From contig NZ_JACHMP010000001.1 of NCBI RefSeq assembly GCF_014204985.1, positions 1,798,001 to 1,862,000 on the forward strand: 64,000 bases of DNA, read 5' to 3'. Below are positions 48,786 to 64,000 of this stretch, in pieces (position 1 is the stretch's first letter; each line of letters opens with the position of its first letter). The DNA is from Streptosporangium becharense (GTDB lineage: Bacteria; Actinomycetota; Actinomycetes; Streptosporangiales; Streptosporangiaceae). The notes beneath the pieces are model-generated. The model was not told the DNA's origin, did no database searches, and saw only the letters and a program-made list of their open reading frames with translations. Made by a program: the position numbers and the translations under genes.

Positions 48786-48795
48786 CAAGCGCTTG
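48786..48795 (+). promoter_or_regulatory. CAAGCGCTTG operator upstream of hyuA
   Basis: The perfect 10-bp palindrome CAAGCGCTTG lies 54 bases before the hyuA start codon. The identical palindrome recurs at 61277 and 61333, with a variant at 63941, always near the start of a catabolic gene. It contains CAAG-N2-CTTG, which resembles the core of the KstR2 (TetR-family) operator as I recall it. The regulator gene is not in this window. Confidence 0.6.
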
Positions 48796-48849
48796 CTAGG
48801 GAAATAGCCTGCCGTTCGTCGGGACCTTCGGACATCACGGGGAGCGCCG

Positions 48850-50898
48850 GTGAGCCACGCGATCGGGGTCGACGTCGGGGGAACGTTCACGGACGTGGTG
48901 CTCAGCGGGCCCGGAGGCGAGATCTCCGTGGCCAAACGCCTGAGCACCCACGGCGACCCGGCGGACGGGGTCGTCGCGGGGATCACCGCCGTCCTCGGTG
49001 ACACCGCCCCCTCCTCGGTGACCCGGGTGGTGCACGCCACCACACTGGCCACCAACGCGATCCTCGAACGCAGGGGCGTCCGGGTCGCCTACGTCACGAC
49101 CCGCGGTTTCCGCTCGGCGATCCCCCTGGGCCGGTACGCCCGGGTCGAGGAGGACCGCTACGACCTGTGGTTCGACCCGCCCGCCCCGCCGGTCGCCGCC
49201 GGAGACTGCTTCGAGGTGCCCGAACGGATCGGCAGCCGGGGCGAGGTGCTCGAACCGCTCGACGAGGCGGCCGTGGCCGGGGTCGGCACGGAGATCGCCC
49301 GGCGGGGCATCACCACGGCCGCCGTCTGCCTGCTGCACTCCTACGCCAACCCGGCCCACGAACAGCGGGTCGCGCGGATCCTTCGGGTCTCGGTTCCGAC
49401 CGTGGTGATCTCCTCGGAGGTCTGGCCCGAGCTGCGTGAGTACGAGCGGGCGACCACCACGATCATGTCGGCGTACGTCGGGCCGGTCATGGCCGGATAC
49501 CTACGGCGCCTGGCCTCGCGGCTGGCCGGCATCGGGATCACCGCCCCGGTGCACGTCATGGACTCCGGCGGCGGCGTGATGTCGGCGGAACTGGCCGCCC
49601 GCCGTGCCGTGGCCACGATCGAGTCCGGACCCGCCGCCGGGGTGCTGGCCGCCGCCGCGTCCGGGTACCCGGACGCGATCTCCTTCGACATGGGCGGCAC
49701 CACCGCCAAGACCTGCGTGATCAGGGACGGCAGACCGGAGATCACCCACGAGTTCCACGTCGGCGGCCGGGGCAGCTTCGGCGGGCGCCGCGCCGGGACG
49801 GGGGTGCCGATCAAGACCCCGGCCGTCGACCTGGCCGAGGTGGGAGCCGGCGGCGGGAGCGTCGCCTGGGTGGACGCGGCGGGCACGCTGCGGGCCGGGC
49901 CGCGCTCGGCCGGTTCCGAGCCCGGCCCGGCCTGCTACGGGCTGGGCGGTGACGAGCCGACGGTGACCGACGCCAACCTGGTGCTCGGCTACCTGGACCC
50001 GGCGTCCTTCGCCTCGGGGACGGTGCCGCTGTCGGCGGACCTCGCCGGCGAGGCCGTCGACCGCCACCTGGCCGGACCGCTGGGGGTCGGCCGGGCCGAG
50101 GCCGCGTACGCCGTCCACGAGATCGCCAACGCCTCGATGGGGTCGGCCGTCCACGTGGTGACCGTGCAGCGCGGCATCGACCCCAGGGGGTTCGTGATGG
50201 TGGCCTTCGGCGGGGCGGGACCGATGCACGCGGCCCGGGTCGCCTCCCGGTTCGGCATCTCCACCGTGGTCGTGCCCGCGTACTGCGGCGTCGGCTCCGC
50301 GGCCGGCCTGCTGACCGCGGACCTGTCCGCCGACCGGGTGCTGTCCGCCCTGGACGCCGACCCCGCGCGGGTCTTCGCCTCCTTGACCGAGGCGGCCGCG
50401 GCGGACCTGGACGCCGACCTCGGCTCCCCCGGCGTGTCCGTCACGTGCTCGGCCGACGTCCGCTTCGCCGGGCAGGCCCACGACCTGACCGTGCCCTGGA
50501 GCGACTCCCCCGGCGAACTGGCCGCGCGCTTCTTCGCCGGATACCGGCAGGTGTACGGGATCGAGCAGGAGGGACCCGTCGAGATCGTGAGCTACCGCGT
50601 CCGCGTCACCCGTGCCGCCCCCGATCCCCCGCCCGCCCGGCGGCCCCCGCCCACGCACCCCCGGCGCCGCCCGGACCCGCCGTGGCCTCCGGCGACGCGG
50701 CGGGCGTACTTCCCGGAGGCGGGCGGGTACGTCCCGGTGCCGGTGCTCACCCGGGCCTGTCTCGCGCGGGCGCCCGGAGGGGCGGTCACCGGGCCGGCGA
50801 TCGTCGAGGACGCCGAGTCGACGATCGTGGTACCGCCGGGGTGGACGGCCCGGCCAGGGCGGAAGGACGCCGTGGTCCTCACCGGGGCGGGCACATGA
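48850..50898 (+). CDS. hyuA: Hydantoinase/5-oxoprolinase A-type subunit
   Basis: The 682-residue ATP-dependent ring-opening subunit (HyuA/OplA superfamily, ASKHA-like) opens with the phosphate-binding motif GVDVGGTFTDVVL. The conserved blocks HATTLATNAILERRG, ESGPAAGVLAAA, SFDMGGTTAKTC and FGGAGPMHAARVA follow. Family members hydrolyse cyclic amides or carboxylate substrates (hydantoins, 5-oxoproline, acetone, acetophenone) with ATP. The actual substrate is not decided by sequence. Start GTG follows GGGGAG. The CAAGCGCTTG operator lies upstream. It is coupled to hyuB by an ATGA overlap. Confidence 0.92.
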   Translation: MSHAIGVDVGGTFTDVVLSGPGGEISVAKRLSTHGDPADGVVAGITAVLGDTAPSSVTRVVHATTLATNAILERRGVRVAYVTTRGFRSAIPLGRYARVEEDRYDLWFDPPAPPVAAGDCFEVPERIGSRGEVLEPLDEAAVAGVGTEIARRGITTAAVCLLHSYANPAHEQRVARILRVSVPTVVISSEVWPELREYERATTTIMSAYVGPVMAGYLRRLASRLAGIGITAPVHVMDSGGGVMSAELAARRAVATIESGPAAGVLAAAASGYPDAISFDMGGTTAKTCVIRDGRPEITHEFHVGGRGSFGGRRAGTGVPIKTPAVDLAEVGAGGGSVAWVDAAGTLRAGPRSAGSEPGPACYGLGGDEPTVTDANLVLGYLDPASFASGTVPLSADLAGEAVDRHLAGPLGVGRAEAAYAVHEIANASMGSAVHVVTVQRGIDPRGFVMVAFGGAGPMHAARVASRFGISTVVVPAYCGVGSAAGLLTADLSADRVLSALDADPARVFASLTEAAAADLDADLGSPGVSVTCSADVRFAGQAHDLTVPWSDSPGELAARFFAGYRQVYGIEQEGPVEIVSYRVRVTRAAPDPPPARRPPPTHPRRRPDPPWPPATRRAYFPEAGGYVPVPVLTRACLARAPGGAVTGPAIVEDAESTIVVPPGWTARPGRKDAVVLTGAGT

Positions 50899-52604
50899 GC
50901 GCGGCGGCCGAGGCGCTGACCGCCGAGGTGCTGCGCAACGCGCTGGTCGTGGCGGCGGAGGAGGCGAGCATCGTGGTGGTGCGGTCGGCCTACTCGACGT
51001 TCATCGTCGAGGGGTCGGACGCCTCGGCGGCGATCCTGGACGCGCGCGGACGGCTGGTCGCGCAGTCGACGGCCACCACGCTCATGAACAGCATGGCCCT
51101 GAAGGTCGCCCTGCCCGAGCTGCTCGCGGACATCCCCGCCGCCTCGATGCGTCCCGGCGACGTGTTCGCGCTCAACGACCCGTACCGGGGCGGGGTGCAC
51201 ACCAACGACCTGCTCGTCTACCGGCCGGTCTTCGTCGCCGGGGCACCCGCCTACTTCACCGCCACGATGATCCACGTCTCCGACCTCGGTGGTCTGTCCG
51301 CGGGCGGGATGGCCCCGCTCGCCACCGACGTCTTCGCCGAGGGCCTGCAGCTCCCGCCGGTCCGGCTGGCCACCGCGCACGGCCCGGAACCCGCGGTCGA
51401 GGCGATCCTGCGGGCCAACAGCCGCACCCCGGACAAGGTCGTGGGCGACGTGCGGGCCCTGGTCGCGGGCACCGCGGTCGCCGCCGCCAGGATGGAGGCG
51501 CTGCTCGCCGAGTACGGCCCGCAAGGGCTCGCCAGGGGCGTCGACGACTACCTGGACCACACCGAGACCCGCACCCGCGCGGCCCTCTCCGCCCTGCCCG
51601 CGGGCCGCCACGAGTCGTCCTACCCGATCGACGACGACGGCCTCGATCCGGCCACCCCGCACACGGTCAGGGTCGCGGTCACCCTGACCCCGCAGACGGG
51701 GGCCGCCGTGCTGGACTTCGCGGGCACCGGCCCGCAGGTCCCCGCGGCGATCAACGCCTCGGCGTCGCAGTCACTGGCCGCCGCGGTGTTCGCGATGCGC
51801 TGCTTCCTGGATCCGGCCATCCCGATGAACGACGGCTGCCTGCGGGCGATCGAGGTGCGGCTGCCGCCGGGCTCGCTGCTGAACGCGCGCTCCCCCTACC
51901 CGTGCGGCGGCCGGTTCGTCCCGATCTACGCGGCGATGGAGGCGGTCTTCCAGGCGCTGTCGGACGCGATGCCGGAGCGGGCCATCGCGGCGAGCGGAAT
52001 CCTGCAACCCTTCTCCGTCGCGGCCGTCGAGGCGCCGTACTGGATCCACCTGTCCTACGACTTCGGCGGGGTGGGCGCCCGGCAGGGCAAGGACGGGCCG
52101 GACGCCACGGGCGTGCACTTCGGCGTCGGCCGCAACTCGGTGCCGCAGGTCGAACCGGTGGAGACCCGCTGCCCGCTGGTCGTGGAATCGGTGGAGATCG
52201 TCCCCGACTCCGGTGGACCCGGTCGCCACCGCGGCGGCCTGGGCTCCCGGACGGTGATCCGCTTCCTGGCCGACGCCCACGTCACCACCCGGGGCGACCG
52301 GCTGCGCAACGCCCCGCCCGGCCGGTCGGGCGGCCTGCCGGGAAGGCTCGGCGGCTTCTACCGGCGGCACCCCGACGGCTCGCTGGAACGCCTCCCCTCC
52401 AAGGTCAACAACGCCCGCTTCGCCGCCGGGGAGGCCCTCGTGATCCAGACGACCGGCGGCGGCGGCATCGGCCCGCCGCGTGAACGCCCGGTGGCGGAGG
52501 TCGTGGCCGACCTCGAAACGGGCCGCGTCACCCCCGCGGGTGCCCTGGCCGACTACGGCGTCGTCCTCCGCCCCGACGGCACCGGCCTGCGCACTCCCCC
52601 GTGA
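50895..52604 (+). CDS. hyuB: Hydantoinase/5-oxoprolinase B-type subunit
   Basis: This 569-residue subunit carries the HyuB blocks ALNDPYRGGVHTNDLLVYRP, SMAL and DFAGTGPQVPAAINAS. The C-terminal PDSGGPGRHRGGLG and GGGGIGPPRERP are the family's conserved metal and active-site region. It partners with HyuA in an A2B2-type complex. The ATG overlaps the hyuA stop; the longer frame is antisense-free but unlikely. Together the pair opens an unknown cyclic amide. Convergent with an Uma2 gene. Confidence 0.92.
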   Translation: MSAAAEALTAEVLRNALVVAAEEASIVVVRSAYSTFIVEGSDASAAILDARGRLVAQSTATTLMNSMALKVALPELLADIPAASMRPGDVFALNDPYRGGVHTNDLLVYRPVFVAGAPAYFTATMIHVSDLGGLSAGGMAPLATDVFAEGLQLPPVRLATAHGPEPAVEAILRANSRTPDKVVGDVRALVAGTAVAAARMEALLAEYGPQGLARGVDDYLDHTETRTRAALSALPAGRHESSYPIDDDGLDPATPHTVRVAVTLTPQTGAAVLDFAGTGPQVPAAINASASQSLAAAVFAMRCFLDPAIPMNDGCLRAIEVRLPPGSLLNARSPYPCGGRFVPIYAAMEAVFQALSDAMPERAIAASGILQPFSVAAVEAPYWIHLSYDFGGVGARQGKDGPDATGVHFGVGRNSVPQVEPVETRCPLVVESVEIVPDSGGPGRHRGGLGSRTVIRFLADAHVTTRGDRLRNAPPGRSGGLPGRLGGFYRRHPDGSLERLPSKVNNARFAAGEALVIQTTGGGGIGPPRERPVAEVVADLETGRVTPAGALADYGVVLRPDGTGLRTPP

Positions 52605-52671
52605 CCGCGCACGCCTCCCCCTCGCCGGCGCACCCGCGACGCGGCCGCGCCAACCGGGCTGCCCACCGGGC

Positions 52672-53256
52672 TCACGTCCGGGGCAGGAGGAGCGCTCCGG
52701 GGTCGAACCGCACCTCGAAGGGGGCGAGCAGGGCCGCCGTCTCCCCCGCCTCGTGTCTCTCCGCGGGCTTGTACTCGTCACCGGCCAGCTCGTGGACGTG
52801 GATCGACGGCCCCTCCCCCAGCTCGACCCGCCAGTAGACGGGGATGCCCGCGGCGGCGTAGGCGGCCCTCTTGAGGTGGCGGTCGCGTGCCTCGGTGGTC
52901 GGGCTGACGATCTCGACGGCCAGCAGGACGTCTTCCGGCCGGAACATCAGCTCCGTCTCCGCGACCGCCGCCGCGGGCACCACGACCAGGTCGGGGATGA
53001 AGAAGTCACGGCGGCCCACCCGGAGGTTGACCTCCTGGAGGGGCTGGAACTCCGCCGGTGCGGCGTCTTCCAGAATCCGAACGAGACGTAGGCTCACAAA
53101 CTGATGCATGGGGGTGGGAGAGGGACTCACCAGTAGGCTCCCGTTGAAGAGCTCGTAACGGTTCCCGTCGTCGGGGAACCTCAGCAGGTCGTCGACAGTG
53201 AACGGCGGCTCTCCTTGAAGAACCGTCCGCCTGGTCGTCGGCTCCGTCGTCGCCAT
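52672..53256 (-). CDS. Uma2-family (DUF820) putative restriction endonuclease-like protein
   Basis: This 194-residue protein has a PD-(D/E)XK-type core: FFIPDLVVVP (Asp) and VLLAVEIVSPTTEARDRHLK (Glu ... Lys). The beginning FTVDDLLRFPDDGNRYELFN is typical of Uma2. The family is abundant in actinobacteria and cyanobacteria and its biological role is unclear. It is not part of a restriction system here. The ATG at 53256 matches the MATTEPT start; a longer frame exists. Confidence 0.88.
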   Translation of the reverse strand: MATTEPTTRRTVLQGEPPFTVDDLLRFPDDGNRYELFNGSLLVSPSPTPMHQFVSLRLVRILEDAAPAEFQPLQEVNLRVGRRDFFIPDLVVVPAAAVAETELMFRPEDVLLAVEIVSPTTEARDRHLKRAAYAAAGIPVYWRVELGEGPSIHVHELAGDEYKPAERHEAGETAALLAPFEVRFDPGALLLPRT

Positions 53257-53324
53257 CGCGGTCACCTGCCCAGTATCGGGAGTCTCGCTTCCACGCACAT
53301 GCTACTTCCGATAATCACCTCACC

Positions 53325-54077
53325 TCAGGTAGCCGAACCGTCACGGTCCGCCCAGTCGAGGGCTCCCCGGAGCACCGCGGCGTGGACGGCGCGGGCGATC
53401 CGGGCTCCCCAGGTGGAGCGGGGGCCGCCGAAGGGCTCCTCGGGGCCTGCGGGGACGCGGTCGAGGGCGACCACGCAGACGGCGTCGGAGGCGGTGCCCG
53501 TACCAGGGAAGCCGATCTCCGCCAGTGCCTGCGCCTTGGCCTCGGTCACCGTCATGACCGCGTTGACCAGGGCGGCGTCGCTCATCGAGACCGGGACCGC
53601 GACGATGATGTTGATCGTGCCCGGCAGACGCATGGGGGCCGGCTCGGGGTCGGGGACGCCCTCGGGGGCGGCGGCCCAGGTGGGGACGCGCAGGCCGACG
53701 GTCGCCACGGCCTCGGCTCCCCCGTCGCACGCCCGGGTGAACCGCTCGACCGAGGCCGCGGTGAGCATGCCGACGCCGGGACCGGGCGGTGCCAGCTCCC
53801 GCAGGTGCGCGACCGGGTCCATCCGTGAGTACCCGGCGACCACCTGCGCGTTGAGCGCCCAGGAGACCGGGCCGATGCCGCCGCCCAGCACGGCCGAGGA
53901 GATCGCCCGCCGGCCGGGCCCGAACTCCCACAGCAGCGAGGCCAGCCGGGCCCCGTCCTCGACGCGGTGGCTCAGCTTCACGGGTGCTCCGGGGGAGGTT
54001 TCGAGGGAGGTGACGCCCCCTGCCGCGGGATCCGGCGCCGAAGGTGCCCGGAGCGGCTGTGCGCGACCCGCTCTCAC
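53325..54077 (-). CDS. cbiZ: Adenosylcobinamide amidohydrolase
   Basis: The 250-residue CbiZ family hydrolyses adenosylcobinamide to adenosylcobyric acid, letting cells salvage incomplete corrinoids. Conserved pieces are AISSAVLGGGIGP, GVGMLTAASVERFT, TVGLRVPTWA, GTINIIVAVPVSMSDAAL and GTASDAVCVVAL. The first 25 residues are disordered. The GTG start overlaps the btuD stop (GTGA), so it is the last gene of the riboswitch-controlled btuFCD-cbiZ operon, an arrangement known for B12 salvage. Confidence 0.92.
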   Translation of the reverse strand: MRAGRAQPLRAPSAPDPAAGGVTSLETSPGAPVKLSHRVEDGARLASLLWEFGPGRRAISSAVLGGGIGPVSWALNAQVVAGYSRMDPVAHLRELAPPGPGVGMLTAASVERFTRACDGGAEAVATVGLRVPTWAAAPEGVPDPEPAPMRLPGTINIIVAVPVSMSDAALVNAVMTVTEAKAQALAEIGFPGTGTASDAVCVVALDRVPAGPEEPFGGPRSTWGARIARAVHAAVLRGALDWADRDGSAT

Positions 54078-54988
54078 GGGCGCTCCAGATGGACCTCGGG
54101 CCTGCCGCCCGGGCCGGTCGAGACCCGGACGCGGGCGTCGAAGTGCTCACCGATCAGCTCCCCGGTCAGCACCTCGGCGGGAGCGCCGGCGGCGGCGATC
54201 CGGCCGCCCGAGACGAGCACCATCGCGTCAGCGTACTGGCCGGCGAGGCTCAGGTCGTGCAGGGTCGTGACGACGGTCAGCCCGTCGGCGAGCCGGAGCC
54301 GGTCCACGAGCTCCATCACCTGCTGCTGGTGCCCGAGGTCCAGGGCCGTCGTGGGCTCGTCGAGCAGCAGCACCGGGGCCTGCTGGGCCAGTGCCCTGGC
54401 GAGCACGACCCGCTGGCGCTCGCCGCCCGACAGGTGGCCGAGTCGGCGCGCGGCCAGCTCCGTCAGGTCCAGCCGCTCCAGCACCGAGGCGGTGACCTCC
54501 CGGTCGCGGCGGTCCTCACGGCTGAAGTAGGGGATGTACGGGGTGCGGCCGAGCAGGGCGTAGTCGAACACGGTCATGTCGGCCGGGAGGGCGGGCGACT
54601 GCGGGGCGTAGGCGATCAGCCTGGCCCGCCTCCTCGGGGACAGCCGCCGGACCTGCGCGCCGTCGACGAGCACCTCCCCCGCGTGGGGCAGCACTCCGGC
54701 CACCGCCCGCAGCAGGGTGGACTTGCCCGCGCCGTTGGCGCCGACGACGGCCAGCCAGCCTCCGGCGCGGACGTCGAACCCGACGTCGGACAGCACGGTC
54801 CGCCGGTCCAGGACGACCGACAGGCCCGTGACCCGCAGGCCGCCCGCCCGGCGGCCGTCTGTCGGCGTTCCGTCGGCCACGGGCCCGTCCCCCCGCCTCC
54901 CCGCGGTCACGGCCGTGTCTTCCGCCGTCTCCGCGGTCGCCTCTCCCTGCTCCCCCGCGACCGTCTCCTCCTGTTCCCCGGCGCTCAC
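54074..54988 (-). CDS. btuD: Cobalamin/corrinoid ABC transporter ATP-binding subunit
   Basis: This 304-residue ATPase has Walker A GANGAGKSTLLRA, the signature LSGGERQRVVLARAL, Walker B PVLLLDEPTTALD and the H-loop TTLHDLSL. About 50 acidic, Ala/Glu-rich residues precede the ATPase fold. This unusual extension is probably disordered and could be an over-long start, though the ATG overlaps the btuC stop (ATGA). The corrinoid assignment rests on its riboswitch and cbiZ, since sequence alone fits the FecCDE iron/siderophore family too. Confidence 0.9.
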   Translation of the reverse strand: MSAGEQEETVAGEQGEATAETAEDTAVTAGRRGDGPVADGTPTDGRRAGGLRVTGLSVVLDRRTVLSDVGFDVRAGGWLAVVGANGAGKSTLLRAVAGVLPHAGEVLVDGAQVRRLSPRRRARLIAYAPQSPALPADMTVFDYALLGRTPYIPYFSREDRRDREVTASVLERLDLTELAARRLGHLSGGERQRVVLARALAQQAPVLLLDEPTTALDLGHQQQVMELVDRLRLADGLTVVTTLHDLSLAGQYADAMVLVSGGRIAAAGAPAEVLTGELIGEHFDARVRVSTGPGGRPEVHLERP

Positions 54989-56079
54989 ATCTCCGCCCTT
55001 CTGGTCATGCGCAGCACCACCACGAAGAACGGCGCGCCGACGAAGGCCGTCACCACGCCGATGGGCAGCTCGGCCGGGGCGAGCGCGGTCCGGGCGATCA
55101 GGTCGGCGAGCACCAGGAAGGCGCCGCCGCCGATCAGCGAGAGCGGCAGCACGACCCGGTAGGAGCCGCCCGCCAGGCGCCGGACGGCGTGCGGGACGAC
55201 GATCCCGACGAAGCCGATCAGTCCGCTGACCGCCACGGCCGACGCGGTGGCCAGGGACGCGGCGAACAGCACGACGAGCCGGACCCGGGCGGCGTTCAGC
55301 CCCAGGGTGGCCGCTTCGTCATCGCCGACCGAGAGGACGTCGAGCAACCGGCCGTGGAGCAGCAGGATCACCGTCGAGACGGCGGCGTACGGGGCGATCA
55401 GCGCGAGCTGTTCCCAGCCTCCGCCGACGTCCCCGAGGATCCAGGCGTAGATCCGCTGGAGCTCCTCGACCCGCAGTTGCTGCAGGAACGTCTGGACGGC
55501 GGCGAGGAAGGACGAGACCGCCACCCCCGCCAGGACGAGCGTGGCGACGCCGCCGCCCCGGCCCGCGGTGTTGCCCAGCGTGTACGCGAGCATGACGCCG
55601 CCGACGGCCCCGGCGAACGCGGAGGCCGGGATGAGGAACGCCTCCCCGTCCCCCCGGGTGAAGACGATCGCCGCCGTGGTGGTCAGGCCGGCGCCGGCGG
55701 CGGCGCCCAGCAGGTAGGGGTCGGCCAGCGGGTTGCGGAAGACGCCCTGGTAGCCGGCGCCGGCGATGGCCAGCAGCCCGCCGACGGTCGCGGCGAGCAG
55801 GACCCGGGGCAGGCGCAGCTCGGCGAGCACCCCCAGCTCGCCCTGGTCGAGCCCCGAGTCGACCTCGACGCGCGGCAGCCAGTCGAGCAGCTGGAGCAGC
55901 ACGCTTCCCGGGGGGATCTCGGCGGCGCCGACGAGCAGCCCGGTGAGCATGCTCGCCAGCAGCGCTCCTGCCGTGCCCAGCGCGACCCACGGACTGAGCC
56001 GGGCCGCCCGGGGCGCCGCCCGGGGCGCCGCCCGCCGTCCGTCCGGCCGGCGCTCCGCGGTGCCCGGCCGGACGGTCAC
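54985..56079 (-). CDS. btuC: Cobalamin/corrinoid ABC transporter permease
   Basis: This 364-residue permease of the FecCD/BtuC family has about ten helices, including RLPRVLLAATVGGLLAIAGA, FRNPLADPYLLGAAAGA and SGLIGFVGIVVPHAVRRLAG, the last being the loop that contacts BtuD. The GTG start overlaps the btuF stop (GTGA). The long frame upstream runs through btuF and the riboswitch in another frame and is not coding. It forms a dimer with two BtuD subunits. Confidence 0.93.
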   Translation of the reverse strand: MTVRPGTAERRPDGRRAAPRAAPRAARLSPWVALGTAGALLASMLTGLLVGAAEIPPGSVLLQLLDWLPRVEVDSGLDQGELGVLAELRLPRVLLAATVGGLLAIAGAGYQGVFRNPLADPYLLGAAAGAGLTTTAAIVFTRGDGEAFLIPASAFAGAVGGVMLAYTLGNTAGRGGGVATLVLAGVAVSSFLAAVQTFLQQLRVEELQRIYAWILGDVGGGWEQLALIAPYAAVSTVILLLHGRLLDVLSVGDDEAATLGLNAARVRLVVLFAASLATASAVAVSGLIGFVGIVVPHAVRRLAGGSYRVVLPLSLIGGGAFLVLADLIARTALAPAELPIGVVTAFVGAPFFVVVLRMTRRAEM

Positions 56080-57071
56080 CCGGCCGCGGCCTTCTCGACG
56101 GCCGTGGCGACCTGCTCGGCGAGGTCGACGACGCGCGGCCCCCACCGGGAGGCGATGTCGTCGTCGAGCGGGACGACCTGGTCGTTCTCGACGGCCGAGA
56201 GCCCGGACCAGCCGGGTCGCTTGGCGACGGTCTCCTTCGACTGACCGCAGCACTTGGTGTCGGCCAGGAAGATGAGGTCCGGGTCGGCCTTGGGGACGAA
56301 CTCGGCGGCCAGCTTGGGGTAGCCGCCGGCGGCGGCGGGTGCCTTGTCGGCGATGTTGGTCAGGCCGAACAGCGCGTAGACCTGGCCGATGAAGGTGGCG
56401 GAGGTCGCCGTGTAGGGCGTGCTGTCCAGCTCGTGATAGTAGGTGAGTTTCGCATCCTTTGGCGCCGCGGCGGCGAGCTCGCCGAGCCGTTTCCTCATCC
56501 CGGCGACGACCTCGGCGGCCTTGGCGGTGTTGCCGGTGGCCGCGCCGAGGTCGGCGATCTGGTCGTAGGCTTCGTCGATCTTGGTGGCGGCGGGTTCGAG
56601 CAGTACGGGGACGCCCACCTTGCCCAGATCGGCCACGACGCCGTCGACGTCGTTGGCCAGCACGACCAGGTCGGGCTTCCTGGCGATGATCGCCTCCACG
56701 TTCGGCTTGAAACCGGACAGGTCGCTCTTCGGCGCCTCGGCGGGGTGGTCGGACTGGTCGTCCACGGCCACCACCTGCGGCCCGGCGCCGATGGCGAACA
56801 GGCTCTCGGTCGCGGTGGGCGACAGGGAGACGATCCGCTCGGGCCGGGCGGCGACGGTGACGGATCCGTTGCCCGCCTCGACCGTGACGGGGAACCCGGC
56901 CGCGCCGGGCGAGGCGGGGGCCGCGGGCGGGGCGGAGGCGCCGGACGGGGCGGGGGCCGCGGGCGGGGCGGAGGCGCCGGACGGGGCGGGGGCGGTGCCC
57001 TGCCCGCCGCATCCGGCCAGGGAGAGGGCGGCGAACAGGGCACCGGCGAGTGCGGTGGACAGGGGCCTCAC
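56076..57071 (-). CDS. btuF: Cobalamin/corrinoid-binding lipoprotein
   Basis: This 331-residue solute-binding protein has a lipoprotein signal with lipobox LSLAGC (Cys about 20). A Pro/Ala/Ser linker containing a tandem 12-residue duplication is followed by the class III binding fold (RIVSLSPTATESLFAIGAGP, KPDLVVLANDV, KPDPDLIF-like KADPDLIFLADT). A Cys-Cys pair (TKCCGQS) is typical of this group. GTG at 57071 with AAAGGA upstream is chosen; the frame is open into the riboswitch. It feeds the coupled BtuCD transporter. Confidence 0.92.
   Translation of the reverse strand: MRPLSTALAGALFAALSLAGCGGQGTAPAPSGASAPPAAPAPSGASAPPAAPASPGAAGFPVTVEAGNGSVTVAARPERIVSLSPTATESLFAIGAGPQVVAVDDQSDHPAEAPKSDLSGFKPNVEAIIARKPDLVVLANDVDGVVADLGKVGVPVLLEPAATKIDEAYDQIADLGAATGNTAKAAEVVAGMRKRLGELAAAAPKDAKLTYYHELDSTPYTATSATFIGQVYALFGLTNIADKAPAAAGGYPKLAAEFVPKADPDLIFLADTKCCGQSKETVAKRPGWSGLSAVENDQVVPLDDDIASRWGPRVVDLAEQVATAVEKAAAG
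56912..56999 (-). repeat. 36-bp duplication in the BtuF linker
   Basis: Two nearly identical 36-bp copies encode the linker stretch containing APSGASAPPAAP. The second copy begins close to 56948. It only lengthens the flexible tether between lipid anchor and binding domain. Confidence 0.85.
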
Positions 57072-57109
57072 ACGAGGTCCTTTCAGTTGCCGGAACCGAG
57101 AGACCCGGG

Positions 57110-57262
57110 AACACGGACGGGTCACCCTTTTCCACGAGGGTTGACGGCGTCGGCGCGGCGGAGGCGACCTGGCTCGGCCCGTCGGGGCCATGACAGTTGC
57201 GGGACAGCGCCGGACTCACACCGGACTTCGCTCTCGCTGCGCGTCGAACGAACGCTATCAAT
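57110..57262 (-). promoter_or_regulatory. Cobalamin riboswitch upstream of btuF
   Basis: The minus strand carries the conserved riboswitch core: AAGTCCGGTGTGAGTCCGGC, then GCTGTCCCGCAACTGT, closely matching the B12-box consensus, and further on GAGCCAGGTCGCC (57165-57177 region). It ends about 40-100 bases before the btuF start, near a GC-rich stretch that could form the terminator or the ribosome-site sequestering helix. Adenosylcobalamin binding would switch the btuFCD-cbiZ operon off. Boundaries are approximate. Confidence 0.88.
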
Positions 57263-57301
57263 CGCTCCGGACGGCCCGGAGTCAAGGGTCCCGGTGGCGG
57301 C

Positions 57302-58153: not shown

Positions 58154-58267
58154 CGCTTCAGTTTCTCACGCCCCCGCCCCCTGATCGCGTGTTCCGGCCG
58201 GTGCGCGGCGGTCCGGCCGGGCCGCCGCCGTCACCCGGCGGGTCGCCGTGACGCGCCGCGGGGCAGG

Positions 58268-59470
58268 TCACCACCGGACGGGCAGCGCGGTCAGGCCACG
58301 GCCCACGATGGACGTGCGGTAGGCGGGCGGCGGGGCGTCCGGGTCCAGGCGCAGGCCGGGCAGGCGCCGGCCCAGCACCTCCAGGGCGGTGCGCAGTTGC
58401 AGCCGGGCGAGCGCGGCGCCGACGCAGAAGTGGATGCCGTAGCCCAGTGTCATGTGCGCGTCGGCGTTGCCCCGGTCGATCACGAACCGCTCCGGCTCGT
58501 CGAAGACGGTCTCGTCGTGGGCCGCGGAGTCGGTGGACAGCAGGCAGAGGGATCCCGCGGGGACGGTCACGCCGTGCAGCTCCACGTCCACCGTGGTGTG
58601 GCGGAAGGAGCCGAGGCTGGCGCCGTCGATGCGCATGCACTCCTCGACCGCGTTGCGGACCAGCTCGGGCGGCACCGGCCAGACGCCCTCGCGCAGCAGC
58701 CGCAGGACGCTGTTGCCGAGCTGGTTGGGCACGGTGTCGTTGCCGCCGAGCAGGATCGTGGAGATCAGCTCGACGACCTCCCGGTGTGACAGCTCGGTGC
58801 CGATCAGGGCCGTCATCAGCGAGACGAAGTCGTCCTCCGGCTCGGCGGCGCGGGCGGCGACGAGCCGGTCGACGTAGTCGAGGTAGGTCAGGAAGCTCTC
58901 GGCCAGCACCAGCTGGCGCTGCGGTGGCTGCGGTGACAGGAAGAGCTGGAACCAGTCCTTGACGTGCTCCTGGACGAACCGCTCGTCCTCCTCGGGGACG
59001 CCGATGAAACGGGCGGTGAGCTTGATGGACGGGATGTGCGCGATCTCGGCGACCAGGTCGCCGCCGCCCCGGGACGCCACCCGGTCGAGCACCTCCTCGT
59101 TCAGGTCGCGGAAGCGCTGTTCCAGGGCGGCGACCGCGCGCGGGGTGAAGGCCCGCGAGACCGAACGGCGCAGCCGGGTGTGGACGGGCGGGTCGACGTT
59201 GGCCACGAAGCTGGACAGGAACGAGCCGTGCTCGCCGAGCACCCGCCTGGTCCCGTCGGCGAGGCTGCGTGAGATCGTCAGCGAACCCGCCGAGGAGAAG
59301 CGCCGCGGGTCGCCGTAGGCGGCGCGCACGTCCTCGTACCGGGTCAGGACGTGGGCACCCAGGTGCTCGCTGCGGAAGACGGGACGCTCGTGACGGAGTC
59401 GGCGCAGGAAGTCGTAGGGTGCGGCGACGTGCCAGGCCGCGCTGACGTCGAAGTCCTCAGCGGTGATCAT
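58268..59470 (-). CDS. Cytochrome P450
   Basis: This 400-residue soluble bacterial P450 has the heme-thiolate motif in LGYGIHFCVGAALARLQLRT, the I-helix acid-Thr in LLGGNDTVPNQLG, and the ExxR segment of the K-helix (EECMR). The substrate region is typical of actinobacterial CYP families, but no subfamily can be named. No ferredoxin gene is adjacent. It follows the phosphotriesterase-like gene with a 14-base overlap, so the two are co-translated. Confidence 0.93.
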   Translation of the reverse strand: MITAEDFDVSAAWHVAAPYDFLRRLRHERPVFRSEHLGAHVLTRYEDVRAAYGDPRRFSSAGSLTISRSLADGTRRVLGEHGSFLSSFVANVDPPVHTRLRRSVSRAFTPRAVAALEQRFRDLNEEVLDRVASRGGGDLVAEIAHIPSIKLTARFIGVPEEDERFVQEHVKDWFQLFLSPQPPQRQLVLAESFLTYLDYVDRLVAARAAEPEDDFVSLMTALIGTELSHREVVELISTILLGGNDTVPNQLGNSVLRLLREGVWPVPPELVRNAVEECMRIDGASLGSFRHTTVDVELHGVTVPAGSLCLLSTDSAAHDETVFDEPERFVIDRGNADAHMTLGYGIHFCVGAALARLQLRTALEVLGRRLPGLRLDPDAPPPAYRTSIVGRGLTALPVRW

Positions 59471-60458
59471 GACGTGCCTCTCGGGACGGCCCTCGCCGGG
59501 CGAGGATCTGCCGGGGGTTGACGGTGAGCATCAGATCGATCTGCTCCTGGGTGACGCCCCGCCTGCGCAGTTCGGGCAGCACGTCCCGGGAGATGTGGAG
59601 CAGGTGGTAGTCGGGGTGGCGCCGCCGGACCACGTCGCGGTCGAAGCGGTCGTTGAAACAGTACGAGTCGTGGGACAGCACCATCCGGTCGGCGTGGCCG
59701 CGGGCGGCGAGCTCGGCGACGACCGACACCCGGTCCTCGAACGAGCTGATCGTGTCGATGCCGAACCGGTCCATGCCCAGGTAGGAGCCGTTCGCGATCA
59801 GCTCCTCCAGGTAGGCGAGGTCGGTGGAGTCCCCGGCGTGCCCGATGACCACTCTGGTGAGGTCCACGCCCATCCCGGCCAGCAGCCTCTGCTGGGCCAG
59901 GCCCCCGGCCGAGGCGCTGTGCGAGTGGGTGGAGATCGGCGCCCCGGTCTCCAGGTGCGCCTCGGCGACCGCGCGGAAGACCCGCTCGCAGCCCTTCGTC
60001 ATGCCCAGGTGGTCGGAGGCGCACTTGAGCACGGCCGCCTTCACGCCGGTGCGGCCGATGCCCTCGGTGATGTCCCGGACGAAGAACTCGGCGAGCCGGT
60101 CCACGCCGCCGAACAACGAGCCCGGCCCCCGGTTGCCGAAGTAGGGCGGCAGGGCGTCGTAGGTGTACAGGCCGGTGGCGACCACGATGTTGACGTCGGT
60201 CAGCTCGGCCACCCGCCGCACCGCGGGCACATAACGGCCGAGACCGACCACGGTCAGGTCCACGATGGAGTCGATGCCGTGCCGCTTGAGGTCGTCCAGC
60301 TCGGCCGCCGCCTCCCGGGCCCGCCGCTCCTGGTCCCACCCCTCGGGGATGTCCGGCCAGTTCCACAGGATCTCCGGGCTGAGCCCGAAGACGTGCTCGT
60401 GCATGAGTGTGGCTCCCAGGTCCGCGACGGGTCCGCCGACCGTCTCGACGGCCGTCAC
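59457..60458 (-). CDS. Phosphotriesterase-related lactonase/amidohydrolase
   Basis: This 333-residue binuclear metal hydrolase has all PTE ligands visible: His20 and His22 (HEH), carbamylated Lys145 (AVLKCASD), His178 (STHSHS), His207 (IGHAGD) and Asp264 (LSHDSY). The family mostly opens lactones in nature, with phosphotriesterase activity as a side reaction. The GTG start overlaps the stop of the PhyH gene (GTGA). Context with P450, PhyH dioxygenase and an LLM oxidoreductase suggests lactone opening during catabolism of a bulky compound. Confidence 0.92.
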   Translation of the reverse strand: MTAVETVGGPVADLGATLMHEHVFGLSPEILWNWPDIPEGWDQERRAREAAAELDDLKRHGIDSIVDLTVVGLGRYVPAVRRVAELTDVNIVVATGLYTYDALPPYFGNRGPGSLFGGVDRLAEFFVRDITEGIGRTGVKAAVLKCASDHLGMTKGCERVFRAVAEAHLETGAPISTHSHSASAGGLAQQRLLAGMGVDLTRVVIGHAGDSTDLAYLEELIANGSYLGMDRFGIDTISSFEDRVSVVAELAARGHADRMVLSHDSYCFNDRFDRDVVRRRHPDYHLLHISRDVLPELRRRGVTQEQIDLMLTVNPRQILARRGPSREARHDHR

Positions 60459-61243
60459 GTGTGCGCCACGAGGGGGAACGCGGGGTGGTCGAACGGCTGG
60501 TTGACGGTGAGCCCGAGGCCGTCGGTCTGCCGGTACGGGGTGCCGGTGTAGAGGGCGTCGGCGTCGAAGTAGGTGACCGTGAACGACAGCCGGGGGGTGT
60601 TGCCGTGGTTGGCCGGAGCGCCGTGCACGGTCAGCGCGTGGTGCACGGTGGCGTCGCCCGCGGCCAGGTCCAGCGGCGGGGAGACCCGGAGTTCCCTCAG
60701 CCAGGGGTGCTGGCTGAGCTGGTCGTCACCGTCTCTCGCGAAGGAGCGGCCGAGCAGGCCGTGGCGATGGGAGCCGCTGACGAAGCGCAGCGATCCCATG
60801 TCGGCCGGGACGTCCACCAGGGCGAGCCAGACGGTCAGCATGGCGGAGCGGTCCATCGGCATCCACGGGAAGTCCTGGTGGAACCCGGTGGCCCCGTGCC
60901 CGCCGCCCGGTTCCTTGATCAGCAGGTTGGTCACCTGGATCCGCACCCCGGTCACCCCGGGCAGCAGCCGGGTGGCGCCGCGGCCGAGCGCCGGGGCGAA
61001 GGCCAGGGCTCTGAAGTGCTCGTCGGTCCCGGCGATGTCCCTGGACTGGCCGAACGCCTCATCGACTCTGGAGACCCTGGAGGCGACCGCCTGGGGGCGG
61101 GCACGCAGGTGGCCGGCGGCCCGGTCGCGGAGCAGCGCCACGCGGCCGGGTTCGACCAGGCACGGCAGGCGCACCCAGCCGTTGTCCTGGAAGAAGGCGA
61201 CCTCGTCGTCGGTCACGTCACGAACCGGGGGGTTGTCAGCCAT
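60455..61243 (-). CDS. Phytanoyl-CoA dioxygenase-family (PhyH) 2-oxoglutarate oxygenase
   Basis: This 262-residue Fe(II)/2OG oxygenase of the PhyH family has the facial triad His122 and Asp124 (GFHQDF) and the distal His207 (TVHGAP). Arg218 (NTPRLSFTV) is suited to bind 2-oxoglutarate. The start ATG has GGAAGG upstream and lies 34 bases from a perfect CAAGCGCTTG palindrome. It is the first gene of the PhyH-PTE-P450 operon. Hydroxylation of a complex terpenoid or alkaloid-like substrate is the common role of such enzymes; the substrate here is unknown. Confidence 0.9.
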   Translation of the reverse strand: MADNPPVRDVTDDEVAFFQDNGWVRLPCLVEPGRVALLRDRAAGHLRARPQAVASRVSRVDEAFGQSRDIAGTDEHFRALAFAPALGRGATRLLPGVTGVRIQVTNLLIKEPGGGHGATGFHQDFPWMPMDRSAMLTVWLALVDVPADMGSLRFVSGSHRHGLLGRSFARDGDDQLSQHPWLRELRVSPPLDLAAGDATVHHALTVHGAPANHGNTPRLSFTVTYFDADALYTGTPYRQTDGLGLTVNQPFDHPAFPLVAHT

Positions 61244-61276
61244 GGGCTCAGTGTCGGACCTTCCGGCTCACTAAAG

Positions 61277-61286
61277 CAAGCGCTTG
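61277..61286 (-). promoter_or_regulatory. CAAGCGCTTG operator for the PhyH operon
   Basis: This is a perfect palindrome in the divergent PhyH/LLM gap, 34 bases upstream of the PhyH start. In context AGCAAGCGCTTGGT it fits the KstR2-like pattern A-n-CAAG-nn-CTTG-n-T exactly. It lies 56 bases from the next copy, so one regulator could control both genes. Confidence 0.65.
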
Positions 61287-61332
61287 GTAATGACAGGTTG
61301 AGTCCGCGGCGGGTTTCCCGGATAGTGGCCGA

Positions 61333-61342
61333 CAAGCGCTTG
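61333..61342 (+). promoter_or_regulatory. CAAGCGCTTG operator for the LLM oxidoreductase
   Basis: The second identical palindrome in the same divergent gap lies 22 bases before the LLM start codon. That position overlaps the expected transcription start and is suited to repression. Confidence 0.65.
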
Positions 61343-61363
61343 GTGACAACCCGGGGAGTGCCC

Positions 61364-62278
61364 ATGGACCGCCCGTTCCGGTTCGCCGCCGTGATCCGCG
61401 GGGCCCCCTCGGCTCGGGCCTGGGCCGAGACCGCCCGGCGTCTGGAGGGCTCCGGATTCGACGCGCTGCTCGTCCCCGACCACCTGGTCGGCCCCCGCTT
61501 CGCGCCGGTCGCGGCGATGACCGCCGCCGCGTGCGCCACCACCCGGCTGCGGGTCGGCACCCTGGTCGTCGCCAACGACTTCCGCCACCCCGCCGTGCTC
61601 GCCAAGGAGGCGGCCACCGTCGACCTGCTGTCGGAGGGCCGGCTGGAGCTGGGCCTGGGCACCGGCTGGATGGCCGCCGACTACGCCGGCGCCGGGCTGC
61701 CGTTCGAGCCCCCCGGCGTCAGGGTCGGCCGGCTGGCCGAGGCGATCACCGTGCTCAAGGGGCTGTGGGCGGACGGCCCGTTCACCTTCCACGGCGAGCA
61801 CTACCGCATCACCGGTCTGGAGCAGACTCCCAAGCCGTGGCGCCGCCCCCACCCGCGCCTGCTGCTCGGCGGCGGCGGACCCCGCATGCTGCGGCTGGCC
61901 GCCCGCGAGGCCGACGTGATCAACCTCGGCATGCGGGTGCGCGCCGACGGCACCGGCCCGGACGGGACGGACGGCGGCCTGGCCGCCTTCCTCGCCAAGA
62001 TCGACGTGGTGCGGAAGGCCGCGACCGGCCGCTACGACCGGATCGAGCTCGGCACGAGCGTCCAGCAACTCGGCGTCCGCAGGGAGGGCGAGCCGTGGAG
62101 CGCCGCCGACTCCTCCCGGCAGGACGAGACGCCCCAGGTGCTGCTCGGCACCCGGCGCGACATCGTGGACAAGCTCCGCCACTGGCGCGACACGCACGAC
62201 CTGTCGTACTTCGTGCTCCACCATGAGCGCGACCTGGACGCCTTCAGCCCGGTCGTCGAGGAGCTCGCCGGACGCTGA
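61364..62278 (+). CDS. LLM-class F420-dependent oxidoreductase
   Basis: This 304-residue luciferase-like monooxygenase fold protein has the LLM segments GFDALLVPDHL, TTRLRVGTLVVANDFRHPAV, EGRLELGLGTGW and RLAEAITVLKGLWAD. In actinobacteria this subgroup normally uses F420H2, not FMN. It could reduce an enone or oxidise an alcohol in the cluster's pathway. ATG at 61364 is chosen because GGGGAG lies upstream; the frame continues antisense to the PhyH gene. The F420 reductase at 14.3 kb could regenerate its cofactor. Confidence 0.9.
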   Translation: MDRPFRFAAVIRGAPSARAWAETARRLEGSGFDALLVPDHLVGPRFAPVAAMTAAACATTRLRVGTLVVANDFRHPAVLAKEAATVDLLSEGRLELGLGTGWMAADYAGAGLPFEPPGVRVGRLAEAITVLKGLWADGPFTFHGEHYRITGLEQTPKPWRRPHPRLLLGGGGPRMLRLAAREADVINLGMRVRADGTGPDGTDGGLAAFLAKIDVVRKAATGRYDRIELGTSVQQLGVRREGEPWSAADSSRQDETPQVLLGTRRDIVDKLRHWRDTHDLSYFVLHHERDLDAFSPVVEELAGR

Positions 62279-62389
62279 CCGCCGCGCGCGGGACCGGCGG
62301 GGCGGTCGGAACGCGGAGACGGCGGGACCGGCGGGACCGGCGGGGCGGCCGGAACGCGGCGCGGGAGGCACCGGCATGATGGTCCCATC

Positions 62390-62971
62390 ATGAACCAGAT
62401 GATTCTGCTGCGACACGGCGAAACGGAGTGGAGCCGCGACGGCCGGCACACCGGACGCACCGACCTGCCGCTGACCGCCAGGGGCGAGGGCCAGGCGCGG
62501 GCGCTGGCGCCGCTGGTCGACGGCCGCGCCTTCGACCTGGTCCTGGTCAGCCCCGCCCGCCGGGCCAGGGACACCGCCGACCTGGCCGGTCTACGCGACT
62601 ACGAGACCGACCCGGACCTGTGGGAGTGGGACTACGGCGGCTACGAGGGCATCACCACCCCGTCCATCCGCGAGACCCGCCCCGGCTGGTACCTGTGGCG
62701 TGACGGCGTCGTCCCGGGTGACACCGCCCACCCCGGCGAGAGCGCCGAACAGGTCGGCGCCCGCGCCGACCGGGTGATCGCCCGCGCGCGGGCCGTCGCG
62801 GGCGACGTGGCGCTCGTCGCCCACGGGCACTTCCTGCGGGTGCTGTGCGCCCGCTGGCTCGGCCTGCCCCCGCAGGACGGCCGTCTCTTCCGCCTGGACA
62901 CCGGAACCTACTCCCGGCTGGGCTTCGAGCACGGCGAGCCGGTCACCCTCACCTGGAACGCCCCCGTCTGA
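62390..62971 (+). CDS. Histidine phosphatase (phosphoglycerate mutase-like)
   Basis: This 193-residue protein has the phosphohistidine motif LLRHGETEWS at residues 7-16 and the second active-site blocks SPARRARDTA and VALVAHGHFLR. It belongs to branch 1 of the histidine phosphatase superfamily and is far shorter than glycolytic dPGM, so a small-molecule phosphatase role is likely. It stands alone between the catabolic block and the NIPSNAP-like gene. Confidence 0.92.
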   Translation: MNQMILLRHGETEWSRDGRHTGRTDLPLTARGEGQARALAPLVDGRAFDLVLVSPARRARDTADLAGLRDYETDPDLWEWDYGGYEGITTPSIRETRPGWYLWRDGVVPGDTAHPGESAEQVGARADRVIARARAVAGDVALVAHGHFLRVLCARWLGLPPQDGRLFRLDTGTYSRLGFEHGEPVTLTWNAPV

Positions 62972-62996
62972 CCGAGAGCGTTCCCCGCGACGGTCA

Positions 62997-63056
62997 CCGG
63001 GTGATCGAGGGCCGGTGGACATCGAACCGGGTGATCGAGGGCCGGTGGACGTCGAA
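62997..63056. repeat. 30-bp tandem duplication
   Basis: Two adjacent 30-bp copies (beginning CCGGGTGATCGAGGGCCGGT) differ at one base. They lie between the phosphatase and NIPSNAP-like genes, just past the latter's stop. No function is apparent. Confidence 0.88.
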
Positions 63057-63100
63057 CCGGATGTCCAGGTCGATGACCCGCTCCAGCGCGACCCGCTTCG

Positions 63101-63922
63101 TCACGGACGGGCCGTCGCCTCCCGCTCCGGACCGGCCGCCGCCTCCCGCTCCCGGCCGGCCGCCGGGAGCGGGGACAGGCGGCAGCCGGGGAAGGGGGCG
63201 AGCAGGGTCTCCCGCCACGGGCCCGTCAGGAAGTCCCTGGCCCGCCTGCTCCAGTCGAGCAACCGCCCGTCCGGCTCGGCCTCGTCGTCCAGGCCGAGGG
63301 CCGCGTCCCTGGCCCGCTGGAGGGCGAGGTGGTCGTCCAGGGACGTACCCCAGACGGTAACGACCTCGGTGTCGCAGAACAGCACCTCGTACAGGCCGAC
63401 GGGCCGGTGGCCGTGGTCGGCGAGGAGCGGGGCACGTTCCTCGCGGACGGCGTCGAGGTAGTCGAGGGCGGCGCCGGGACGGACCTGCGCGCTTTCGAAC
63501 AGGTAGAAGGGGGCGGCGTAGCCCTCCGCGGCGAGGTCGGCCAACGCCGGGCTGCCGCGCACGGCGCCCAGCGGCCGGGAGAACGCCGAGAAGCGCAGGT
63601 CGTCGATGTCGGACAGGAACAGCCTGCCGTCGACGCCGTCGTAGATCTCCATCATCTGGCGCCAGCCGCCGTCCCAGCCGCCGTGGCAGTCCCAGAGCGT
63701 GACGGCCCTGAACTGGGGGTGCCCGGTGATGCCGACGGCGTAGAAGGCGCCGGCGAGGTCGATCTGCCGCGACCTGATCGACAGGCCCCGGGTCAGCTCG
63801 GGTGCGTCGAGAAGCCGGTCCTCATCCTTGTAGCGGGTGAGCCAGCTCAGGTACTCCAGCGGCTTGCGGGAGTTCATCGGCCGGAAGTCGACCTCTTCGA
63901 TCAGGTAGATGCCTCGCCGCAC
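63101..63922 (-). CDS. NIPSNAP-like protein with tandem dimeric alpha/beta-barrel domains
   Basis: This 273-residue protein appears to contain two ferredoxin-like repeats. The first begins RRGIYLIEEVDFRPMNSRKP; the second includes PFYLFESAQVRPGAALDYLD and VGLYEVLFCDTEVVTVWGTS, which resemble NIPSNAP/EthD-type dimeric barrels. The GTG start is set by GAGGAGG 8 bases upstream; the upstream frame passes through the operator. The C-terminal tail is repetitive (REREAAAGPEREATARP). A variant of the CAAGCGCTTG operator lies 19 bases upstream. Its role is unknown, but NIPSNAP-like proteins often accompany catabolic oxygenases. Confidence 0.72.
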   Translation of the reverse strand: MRRGIYLIEEVDFRPMNSRKPLEYLSWLTRYKDEDRLLDAPELTRGLSIRSRQIDLAGAFYAVGITGHPQFRAVTLWDCHGGWDGGWRQMMEIYDGVDGRLFLSDIDDLRFSAFSRPLGAVRGSPALADLAAEGYAAPFYLFESAQVRPGAALDYLDAVREERAPLLADHGHRPVGLYEVLFCDTEVVTVWGTSLDDHLALQRARDAALGLDDEAEPDGRLLDWSRRARDFLTGPWRETLLAPFPGCRLSPLPAAGREREAAAGPEREATARP

Positions 63923-63940
63923 GATGAGCGCCTCCTCGAC

Positions 63941-63956
63941 CCAAGCGGTTGCTTGG
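63941..63956 (-). promoter_or_regulatory. Variant operator upstream of the NIPSNAP-like gene
   Basis: CCAAGC-GGTT-GCTTGG is a perfect inverted repeat. It also contains CAAGCGGTTG, one base different from the CAAGCGCTTG palindrome found at 48786, 61277 and 61333. It lies 19 bases before the start codon, like the operator of the LLM gene. Confidence 0.5.
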
Positions 63957-64000
63957 TTGGCACCATAGTCGAGGAGGATCACCCCGTACAGAGCCGACCC

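Follow-up and report, generated by a model that had tools for sequence, protein, structure and literature searches.

Here, we describe the putative control system of a catabolic gene set in Streptosporangium becharense, centred on a palindrome, CAAGCGCTTG, in a 64,000-nucleotide stretch of its genome (NCBI RefSeq assembly GCF_014204985.1, contig NZ_JACHMP010000001.1, positions 1,798,001 to 1,862,000; hereafter the window). The palindrome is best read as the operator of a TetR repressor of the KstR2 type, here called B, controlling about ten dispersed units, and we put the probability of this reading at about 0.83. B is predicted to bind either CAAGCGCTTG or the same half-sites set 4 bp further apart, at about ten scattered promoters; we refer to these as the spacer-0 and spacer-4 forms.

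Placement and conservation of the predicted operator

The window holds three exact copies of CAAGCGCTTG, before hyuA, PhyH and the gene of an F420-dependent LLM-class oxidoreductase (Table 1). Dinucleotide shuffles of the window contain a mean of 0.02 copies, and none of the 100 shuffles has three. The PhyH and LLM copies are 56 bp apart from start to start, leaving 46 bp between the two 10-mers. An earlier reading of the same DNA, made from the sequence only, had noticed the palindrome before these three genes, giving the distance to hyuA correctly and those to PhyH and LLM (34 and 22 bp instead of 33 and 21) with an error of one. It had also noted a variant with dyad symmetry before a NIPSNAP-like gene. 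This variant is present and conserved, but it is a different dyad rather than the same palindrome, its half-sites being 4 bp more separated. When one mismatch is allowed, the window has four matches, a count equalled by 7 of the 100 shuffles, so the NIPSNAP-like variant is weak alone and conservation has to decide. The NIPSNAP-like gene has an alternative GTG further upstream at 63982, also in the open frame; genes were called by an in-house script, and starts and intergenic status are approximate throughout.

Conservation was examined in 62 named loci (1.17 Mb) obtained by a PhyH scan, which come from Streptosporangium, Planomonospora, Planobispora, Sphaerisporangium, Nonomuraea, Actinomadura and others. 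These loci contain 86 copies of CAAGCGCTTG, 83 of them intergenic, and 29 alternative palindromes built from the same letters occur 0 to 28 times each. When the two half-sites are moved apart as CAAGC-Nk-GCTTG, the 86 copies at k = 0 are joined by 38 at k = 4, all intergenic; there are none at k = 1-3, 5-7 and 11-12, and 1, 4 and 3 at k = 8, 9 and 10. In 61 of the relatives, the site near PhyH is of the spacer-0 form, but the remaining one (L284) has the spacer-4 form in the gap from PhyH to LLM and a second time before its hyuA gene, so the two forms seem interchangeable.

For each gene, we counted the exact sites, spacer-0 or spacer-4, that lie close to its start, excluding genes less than 200 bases from the end of a locus and scoring a site between divergent genes for both. 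A site precedes PhyH in 62/62 cases, LLM in 52/55 and the NIPSNAP-like gene in 33/43; one-letter variants precede the remaining 10 NIPSNAP-like genes and two of the three remaining LLM genes. The site before most of its orthologues supports placing the NIPSNAP-like gene in the set, as had been proposed. In the same relatives, no site was found before the downstream operon genes (phosphotriesterase (PTE) family 0/70, cytochrome P450 0/62, hyuB 0/22) or before the gene at 62390 (0/36). The genes in between, which the sequence-only reading had described as free of the operator, indeed lack it in the relatives as well: four B12-uptake-type genes (0 of 30-33), Uma2 (0/15) and a sugar-oxidoreductase-like gene (0/42). 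Among genes without a counterpart in the window, 15/528 have a nearby site. For hyuA, the spacer-0 site is present in all three genomes compared, namely that of S. becharense itself (G000) and two others of the family (G095 and G196), and the same targets bear sites in all three.

The probable regulator and its paralogue

The genome has 95 matches to TetR_N. The scan for the site covered the loci of 88 of these, all but the six at the end of the list and one more that lies in the window and has no site near it. Among the 88, CAAGCG[CA]TTG occurs only at B, as CAAGCGATTG 22 bp upstream of the start; two other TetR loci carry CAAGCGCTTC (L112) and CAAGATCTTG (L091). The nearest solved relatives of B are 2ibd (1.8e-53), which we take to be KstR2 of Rhodococcus jostii RHA1, and KstR2 of Mycobacterium tuberculosis (7.7e-49), the next reaching only 80 bits, and the recognition helix of B, GILSGSLYHHF, is identical to that of both. 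Upstream of B in the 30 best-scoring loci (its own and those of 29 relatives), CAAGCGCTTG is present in 19, CAAGCGATTG in 23, both in 12 and neither in none; CAAGCGATTG lies 21-28 bp from the start of the match in 21 of its 23 loci. The sequence-only reading had postulated one TetR-type regulator with one operator, a role that B would fill, with the operator upstream in 30/30 of these loci.

The operator itself is also of the KstR2 kind. The KstR2 motif is AnCAAGnnCTTGnT (Kendall 2010, PMC3068626), and an M. tuberculosis KstR2 probe that was positive in an electrophoretic mobility shift assay (EMSA) contains CAAGCGCTTG. An R. jostii KstR2 site, given there without EMSA, reads CCAAGCGATTGCTTGG; CAAGCGATTG, the core of the B promoter, is also the core of this site, and the spacer-4 dyad lies within it too. 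Of the 86 copies in relatives, 71 fit the full AnCAAGnnCTTGnT, and its outer A/T is found in 91% of half-sites when both strands are counted. The likeness to KstR2 that the sequence-only reading had seen in the CAAGnnCTTG core, which is present at target promoters and at the gene of B itself, is supported by sequence, but the regulator appears to be a second KstR2-type TetR, not the KstR2 of the HIP cluster.

That HIP (ring-degradation) cluster lies at 0.48 Mb and comprises EchA20-, FadE-, IpdC-, IpdA- and IpdB-like genes together with another KstR2-type TetR, A; B is at 2.20 Mb. The IpdA-like protein matches 6co6 at 2.2e-102, and the other names in the cluster rest on gene order and family. 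By its position outside this cluster, B is not KstR2 sensu stricto. An RDxxWxxxRWxRPGG stretch is conserved in both B and A, which is compatible with an acyl-CoA ligand without identifying which; Arg162 and Trp166 are contact residues for HIP-CoA. In a phylogenetic tree, the B group forms its own clade (100/99), but its placement among the KstR2-type groups is unsure, the forks between them having bootstrap values of 81-90 and long branches.

We considered whether A rather than B regulates the CAAGCGCTTG sites, as an ordinary KstR2 with a wider regulon. A is KstR2-like, stands beside the IpdA-, IpdB- and IpdC-like genes and is slightly nearer R. jostii KstR2 (49% identity, against 44.5% for B). 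A dispersed regulon of the KstR2 type would also not be entirely new: in Nocardioides simplex, KstR2 sites have been predicted upstream of 29 operons (PMC7807495). We nevertheless regard this explanation as improbable, given that the 16 kb around A contain no CAAGCGCTTG and that the cluster has a different operator. Its gaps contain CAAACACTTGTTTG, CAAACGCTTG and CAAACATTTG, and the pattern CAAAC[AG][CT]TTG occurs three times in 355 kb of the S. becharense sequence, always in these gaps (L352:905, 6373 and 9910). Among 11 stretches from relatives around a second KstR2-type TetR, three (from one genus) include the HIP cluster, and all three have CAAACGTTTG. The recognition helices differ as well, A having GILAGSIYHHF and the HIP TetRs of the three relatives GMLAGSLYYHF, with Ala where B and both solved KstR2 proteins have Ser; the other eight of the 11 have Gly at this position. 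Reading head and operator thus differ in parallel between the paralogues, with LSGS going with CAAGC and LAGS with CAAAC, although A and the three HIP TetRs do not group together in the tree.

A further explanation, which we consider very improbable, is that the palindrome serves an unrelated TetR of the AtuR/RdmA type (terpene or fatty-acid catabolism) or the MerR-type protein encoded beside the L021 site. AtuR and RdmA of Pseudomonas bind the core AGCAAGCGCTTGG, also in pairs, as 13-bp repeats 40 or 42 bp apart (PMC9973270), which resembles the paired use of the core at PhyH and LLM, where the spacing between 10-mers is 46 bp. B alone carries the CAAGCG[CA]TTG site among the TetR loci scanned, and it is KstR2-like by sequence. 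The start of the MerR-type gene (L021:14947) is only 242 bp away from the site, but this gene has no counterpart in the G095 and G196 stretches around the conserved thiolase site, and it was rejected as the regulator.

Predicted targets across the genome and co-inheritance

In the whole genome (7.82 Mb), there are 10 exact copies of CAAGCGCTTG and 22 of a reversed-letter control; for CAAGNNCTTG, the numbers are 36 and 204. The palindrome is not over-represented, so the evidence lies in its placement and not in its number. Nine of the ten copies are intergenic, against about 16% intergenic sequence in the part of the genome examined (binomial p 5e-7, in-house gene caller), and three lie inside the 64-kb window. 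A palindrome common in coding DNA and absent upstream of genes would have spoken against the sequence-only reading; one copy of the ten is genic. This copy (L023, at 4676668) sits within a gene and was taken as background rather than as a member of the regulon. That the palindromes are chance matches or a non-operator repeat such as a structural element is hardly credible: the raw count below the control and a density of about 0.5 copies per Mb where the pathway is absent would suit such a view, but it is contradicted by the gene-specific conservation in 62 relatives, almost wholly at spacers 0 and 4, and by the absence of the site before neighbouring genes.

The predicted regulon comprises B itself, hyuAB, PhyH-PTE-P450, LLM, the NIPSNAP-like gene, a phosphotransferase-like gene, two Ltp2-like thiolase units, an EchA19-like hydratase and a CYP125-type P450; one of the thiolase units would include a ChsH2-type DUF35 gene and a divergent HsaB-like flavin reductase. 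The genes named in the sequence-only reading are supported as members, but that list was incomplete, and the CYP125-type P450, the thiolases, the hydratase, the phosphotransferase-like gene and others have been added. That the operons might together break down a single compound, with lactone opening and ATP-driven ring opening among the steps, is a further suggestion of the sequence-only reading. Gaps between site and called start range from 21 to 296 bp. The thiolase at L020 is closest to the lipid-transfer protein 6ok1 (2.9e-88), presumably the Ltp2 aldolase of Thermomonospora curvata. Several proteins score below the NCBIfam cut-offs for the named enzymes (EchA19 330/400, HsaB 174/230, PRK07855 392/469 and caprolactamase alpha 423/1000 bits), so they are homologues and not proven equivalents; the EchA19-like protein passes PRK07799 (351 vs 316).

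Table 1. Predicted operator copies, regulators and window genes. Single numbers refer to the window, and L labels to separate stretches of the genome.
Feature	Location	Strand	Remarks
Operator, spacer-0 form CAAGCGCTTG	48786..48795	.	54 bp upstream of hyuA GTG 48850; orthologous site in G095 and G196
Operator CAAGCGCTTG	61277..61286	.	33 bp upstream of PhyH ATG 61243 (minus strand)
Operator CAAGCGCTTG	61333..61342	.	21 bp upstream of LLM ATG 61364
Operator, spacer-4 form CCAAGC-GGTT-GCTTGG	63941..63956	.	18 bp upstream of NIPSNAP-like GTG 63922; conserved as CAAGC-N4-GCTTG before orthologues
CAAGCGCTTG	L019		Near APH-type phosphotransferase gene
CAAGCGCTTG, two copies	L020		Between Ltp2-like thiolase (with ChsH2-type DUF35 gene) and divergent HsaB-like flavin reductase
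CAAGCGCTTG	L021		Before another thiolase (Ltp2-like)
CAAGCGCTTG	L022		Before EchA19-like hydratase
CAAGCGCTTG	L024		Before CYP125-type P450
TetR regulator B	G000:C1:2204046-2204729 = L021:7146-7832		About 340 kb from the window
TetR A	L352:8241-8870		KstR2-like, 4w1u 4.9e-51
hyuA, hydantoinase/oxoprolinase/caprolactamase-like subunit A	48850..50898	+	NCBIfam caprolactamase alpha 422.7 bits, under the cut-off of 1000
hyuB, hydantoinase B/oxoprolinase subunit	50895..52604	+	Pfam PF02538 3e-145; overlaps hyuA
Cytochrome P450, third gene in PhyH operon	58268..59470	-	Orthologue at 62/62 PhyH loci
Phosphotriesterase-family (PTE) hydrolase	59457..60458	-	PF02126 1e-91; overlaps both neighbours
PhyH, phytanoyl-CoA dioxygenase family	60455..61243	-	PF05721 1.6e-25
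F420-dependent LLM-class oxidoreductase	61364..62278	+	TIGR03621, 288.7 bits vs cut-off 213
NIPSNAP-like protein	63101..63922	-	Predicted as two alpha/beta-barrel-type repeats

Two copies of the spacer-4 dyad CCAAGC-GAGC-GCTTGG flank the region of the regulator, at L354:3700-3715 and L355:13018-13033, 70 and 49 bp before two more luciferase-family monooxygenase genes, which are probably further members of the regulon. Other site-bearing genes are conserved in G095 (L315:4742-5149, L316:3460-4575 and L327:3958-5037), with counterparts in G196 (L341, L335 and L333); they encode a ChsH2-type DUF35 protein, an Rv3169-family protein and a DapB/2,4-diaminopentanoate-dehydrogenase-like protein, and have no adjoining exact site in S. 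becharense.

A link to sterols is provided by the P450 at L024 (L024:8126-9331), whose nearest solved relatives are CYP125 steroid C26-monooxygenases (CYP125MRCA 3.4e-153, other CYP125 5.5e-111 to 1.2e-105), and which is of the CYP125 type by this comparison. About 11 kb away, at 4.96 Mb, is what looks like a canonical sterol side-chain cluster, with a steroid 3-ketoacyl-CoA thiolase of the FadA5 type (546 bits, cut-off 515), an Ltp2-type lipid-transfer protein (710, cut-off 469), a KstR-like TetR below the cut-off (140/280) and a T..AAC..GTT..A site, which we take to be the KstR motif. The CYP125 promoter (L024:9628-9664) has CAAGCGCTTG and the KstR-type site TGGAACGTGTTCTA 13 bp apart, and a like pair lies 14 bp apart in L325 and L332, so that a B site and a KstR-type site stand 13-14 bp from each other in 3/3 genomes (G000, G095 and G196). 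The KstR-type pattern is rare, with 14 matches in 692 kb from the three genomes, 12 of them intergenic and some before genes unrelated to sterols. Joint control of this promoter by a KstR-type and a KstR2-type repressor is possible. The double site ties the B regulon to steroid-like substrates, though not to a substrate for the genes of the window.

We also compared 200 genomes of the family. PhyH is present in 30 (31 matched; G106, at 41% identity, was dropped, and G180, with a match in two pieces, was counted), the NIPSNAP-like gene in 32, and B, at a threshold of 57% identity or more, in 127. All 30 PhyH genomes also have B and the NIPSNAP-like gene. In these 30 genomes, the median number of CAAGCGCTTG copies is 15.5, and in the remaining 170 it is 3 (Mann-Whitney 8e-15); for the control pattern, the two groups do not differ (p 0.35). 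Within the genus, genomes with PhyH have 10, 17, 19 and 19 copies, against 3, 1, 3, 5, 3, 3 and 5 in those without.

Several observations weigh against assigning the palindrome to B. Its genome-wide count is below that of the reversed control, the promoter of B in S. becharense has the CAAGCGATTG variant only, and the full 14-bp KstR2 motif AnCAAGnnCTTGnT fits only 3/10 of the exact copies in this genome. For the phosphotransferase-like gene, the second thiolase and CYP125, the distance from site to called start is 131, 131 and 296 bp. Two more hyuA orthologues among the 62 loci have, in one case, the spacer-4 form and, in the other (L288), only the variant CAAGCGTTTG. AtuR and RdmA bind the same core, and the regulator can therefore not be named from the core alone. 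The 97 genomes with B and without PhyH have no more copies than the 73 without a close B (p 0.71), which means that having B is not by itself a predictor of many sites. Some genomes lacking PhyH are rich in CAAGCGCTTG (G186 30, G179 17, G106 16 and G003 15); G186 has only a distant relative of B (best E 2.0e-45) and may represent an enlarged regulon of another KstR2-type TetR.

Known systems and the genes of the window

From the site, its placement and conservation, the autoregulatory site, the KstR2-like reading head and the co-inheritance, all of them sequence-based, we infer binding, repression, ligand and substrate. B would repress its target units and its own gene. The effector of KstR2 is HIP-CoA (PMC7807495); by analogy, a CoA thioester of a steroid-like compound, made by the pathway, would probably release B, whereupon all units would rise together.

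The closest known system is KstR2 of Mycobacterium and Rhodococcus, with which B shares the TetR sub-family, the recognition helix, the motif AnCAAGnnCTTGnT in relatives, an autoregulatory site about 22 bp upstream, divergent promoters and CoA-linked catabolic targets. The published KstR2 regulon has three sites and 15 genes, all near kstR2 (PMC3068626), whereas B has about ten predicted dispersed units; none was found in the HIP cluster, where a separate TetR and a CAAAC operator are present. Additionally, the N4 form stands alone before some B targets, whereas KstR2 sites often hold it within a longer dyad. With KstR, B has in common side-chain-type targets (CYP125, EchA19-like and Ltp2-like enzymes). 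It differs in its operator, and a KstR-like TetR is encoded separately in the genome, alongside FadA5- and Ltp2-type genes; at the CYP125 promoter, both kinds of site occur.

In the open-access literature, which leaves most subscription papers outside its scope, we found no paper pairing KstR2 with Streptosporangium, Nonomuraea or Actinomadura. Apparently new are a second regulator of the KstR2 type with its set of targets, the use of different operators by paralogues, the occurrence of two spacers and the double site at CYP125. Our broader interpretation, held with as much doubt as conviction, is that the Streptosporangiaceae have a third steroid-type layer of control. A KstR2 paralogue with a kept reading head, outside the ring-degradation cluster, would sense another CoA thioester and control a scattered pathway of patchy inheritance (PhyH, PTE-type hydrolase, P450, F420 oxidoreductase, HyuAB and barrel protein) for some polycyclic isoprenoid. 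The HIP-cluster TetRs would have shifted to CAAAC with the Ser-to-Ala change, and the layer would meet KstR at the CYP125 promoter.

These predictions provide a candidate regulator, operator code and co-inherited gene set for the F420 LLM oxidoreductase TIGR03621, the phosphotriesterase-family hydrolase, HyuAB and the NIPSNAP-like protein in an actinomycete family. They also point to two KstR2-type paralogues that form a natural pair, with parallel differences in recognition helix and operator, and the CYP125 gene offers a promoter with KstR-type and KstR2-type sites 13-14 bp apart.

Among the window genes themselves, the P450 of the PhyH operon has closest solved relatives that are not CYP125, and the top PDB match of the PTE-family hydrolase is the phosphotriesterase homology protein 4if2 (2.6e-117). 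The NIPSNAP-like protein itself matches no Pfam family; for NIPSNAP (PF07978), the best E value was 0.023, in 7/20 orthologues. Its structure model (pLDDT 72) predicts an alpha/beta-barrel-type fold but points to no function, and Foldseek finds, at best at 1.6e-6, coproheme decarboxylase, PenE and anthrone-oxidase-like chains.

The window also contains, at 53325-57071, genes for CbiZ, an ABC ATPase, a FecCD permease and a periplasmic binding protein, which lie near PhyH, without the operator, in 30-33 of the 62 relatives. The sequence-only reading took this set as B12 uptake and salvage; B12 would serve the use of propionyl-CoA, a usual product of sterol side chains.

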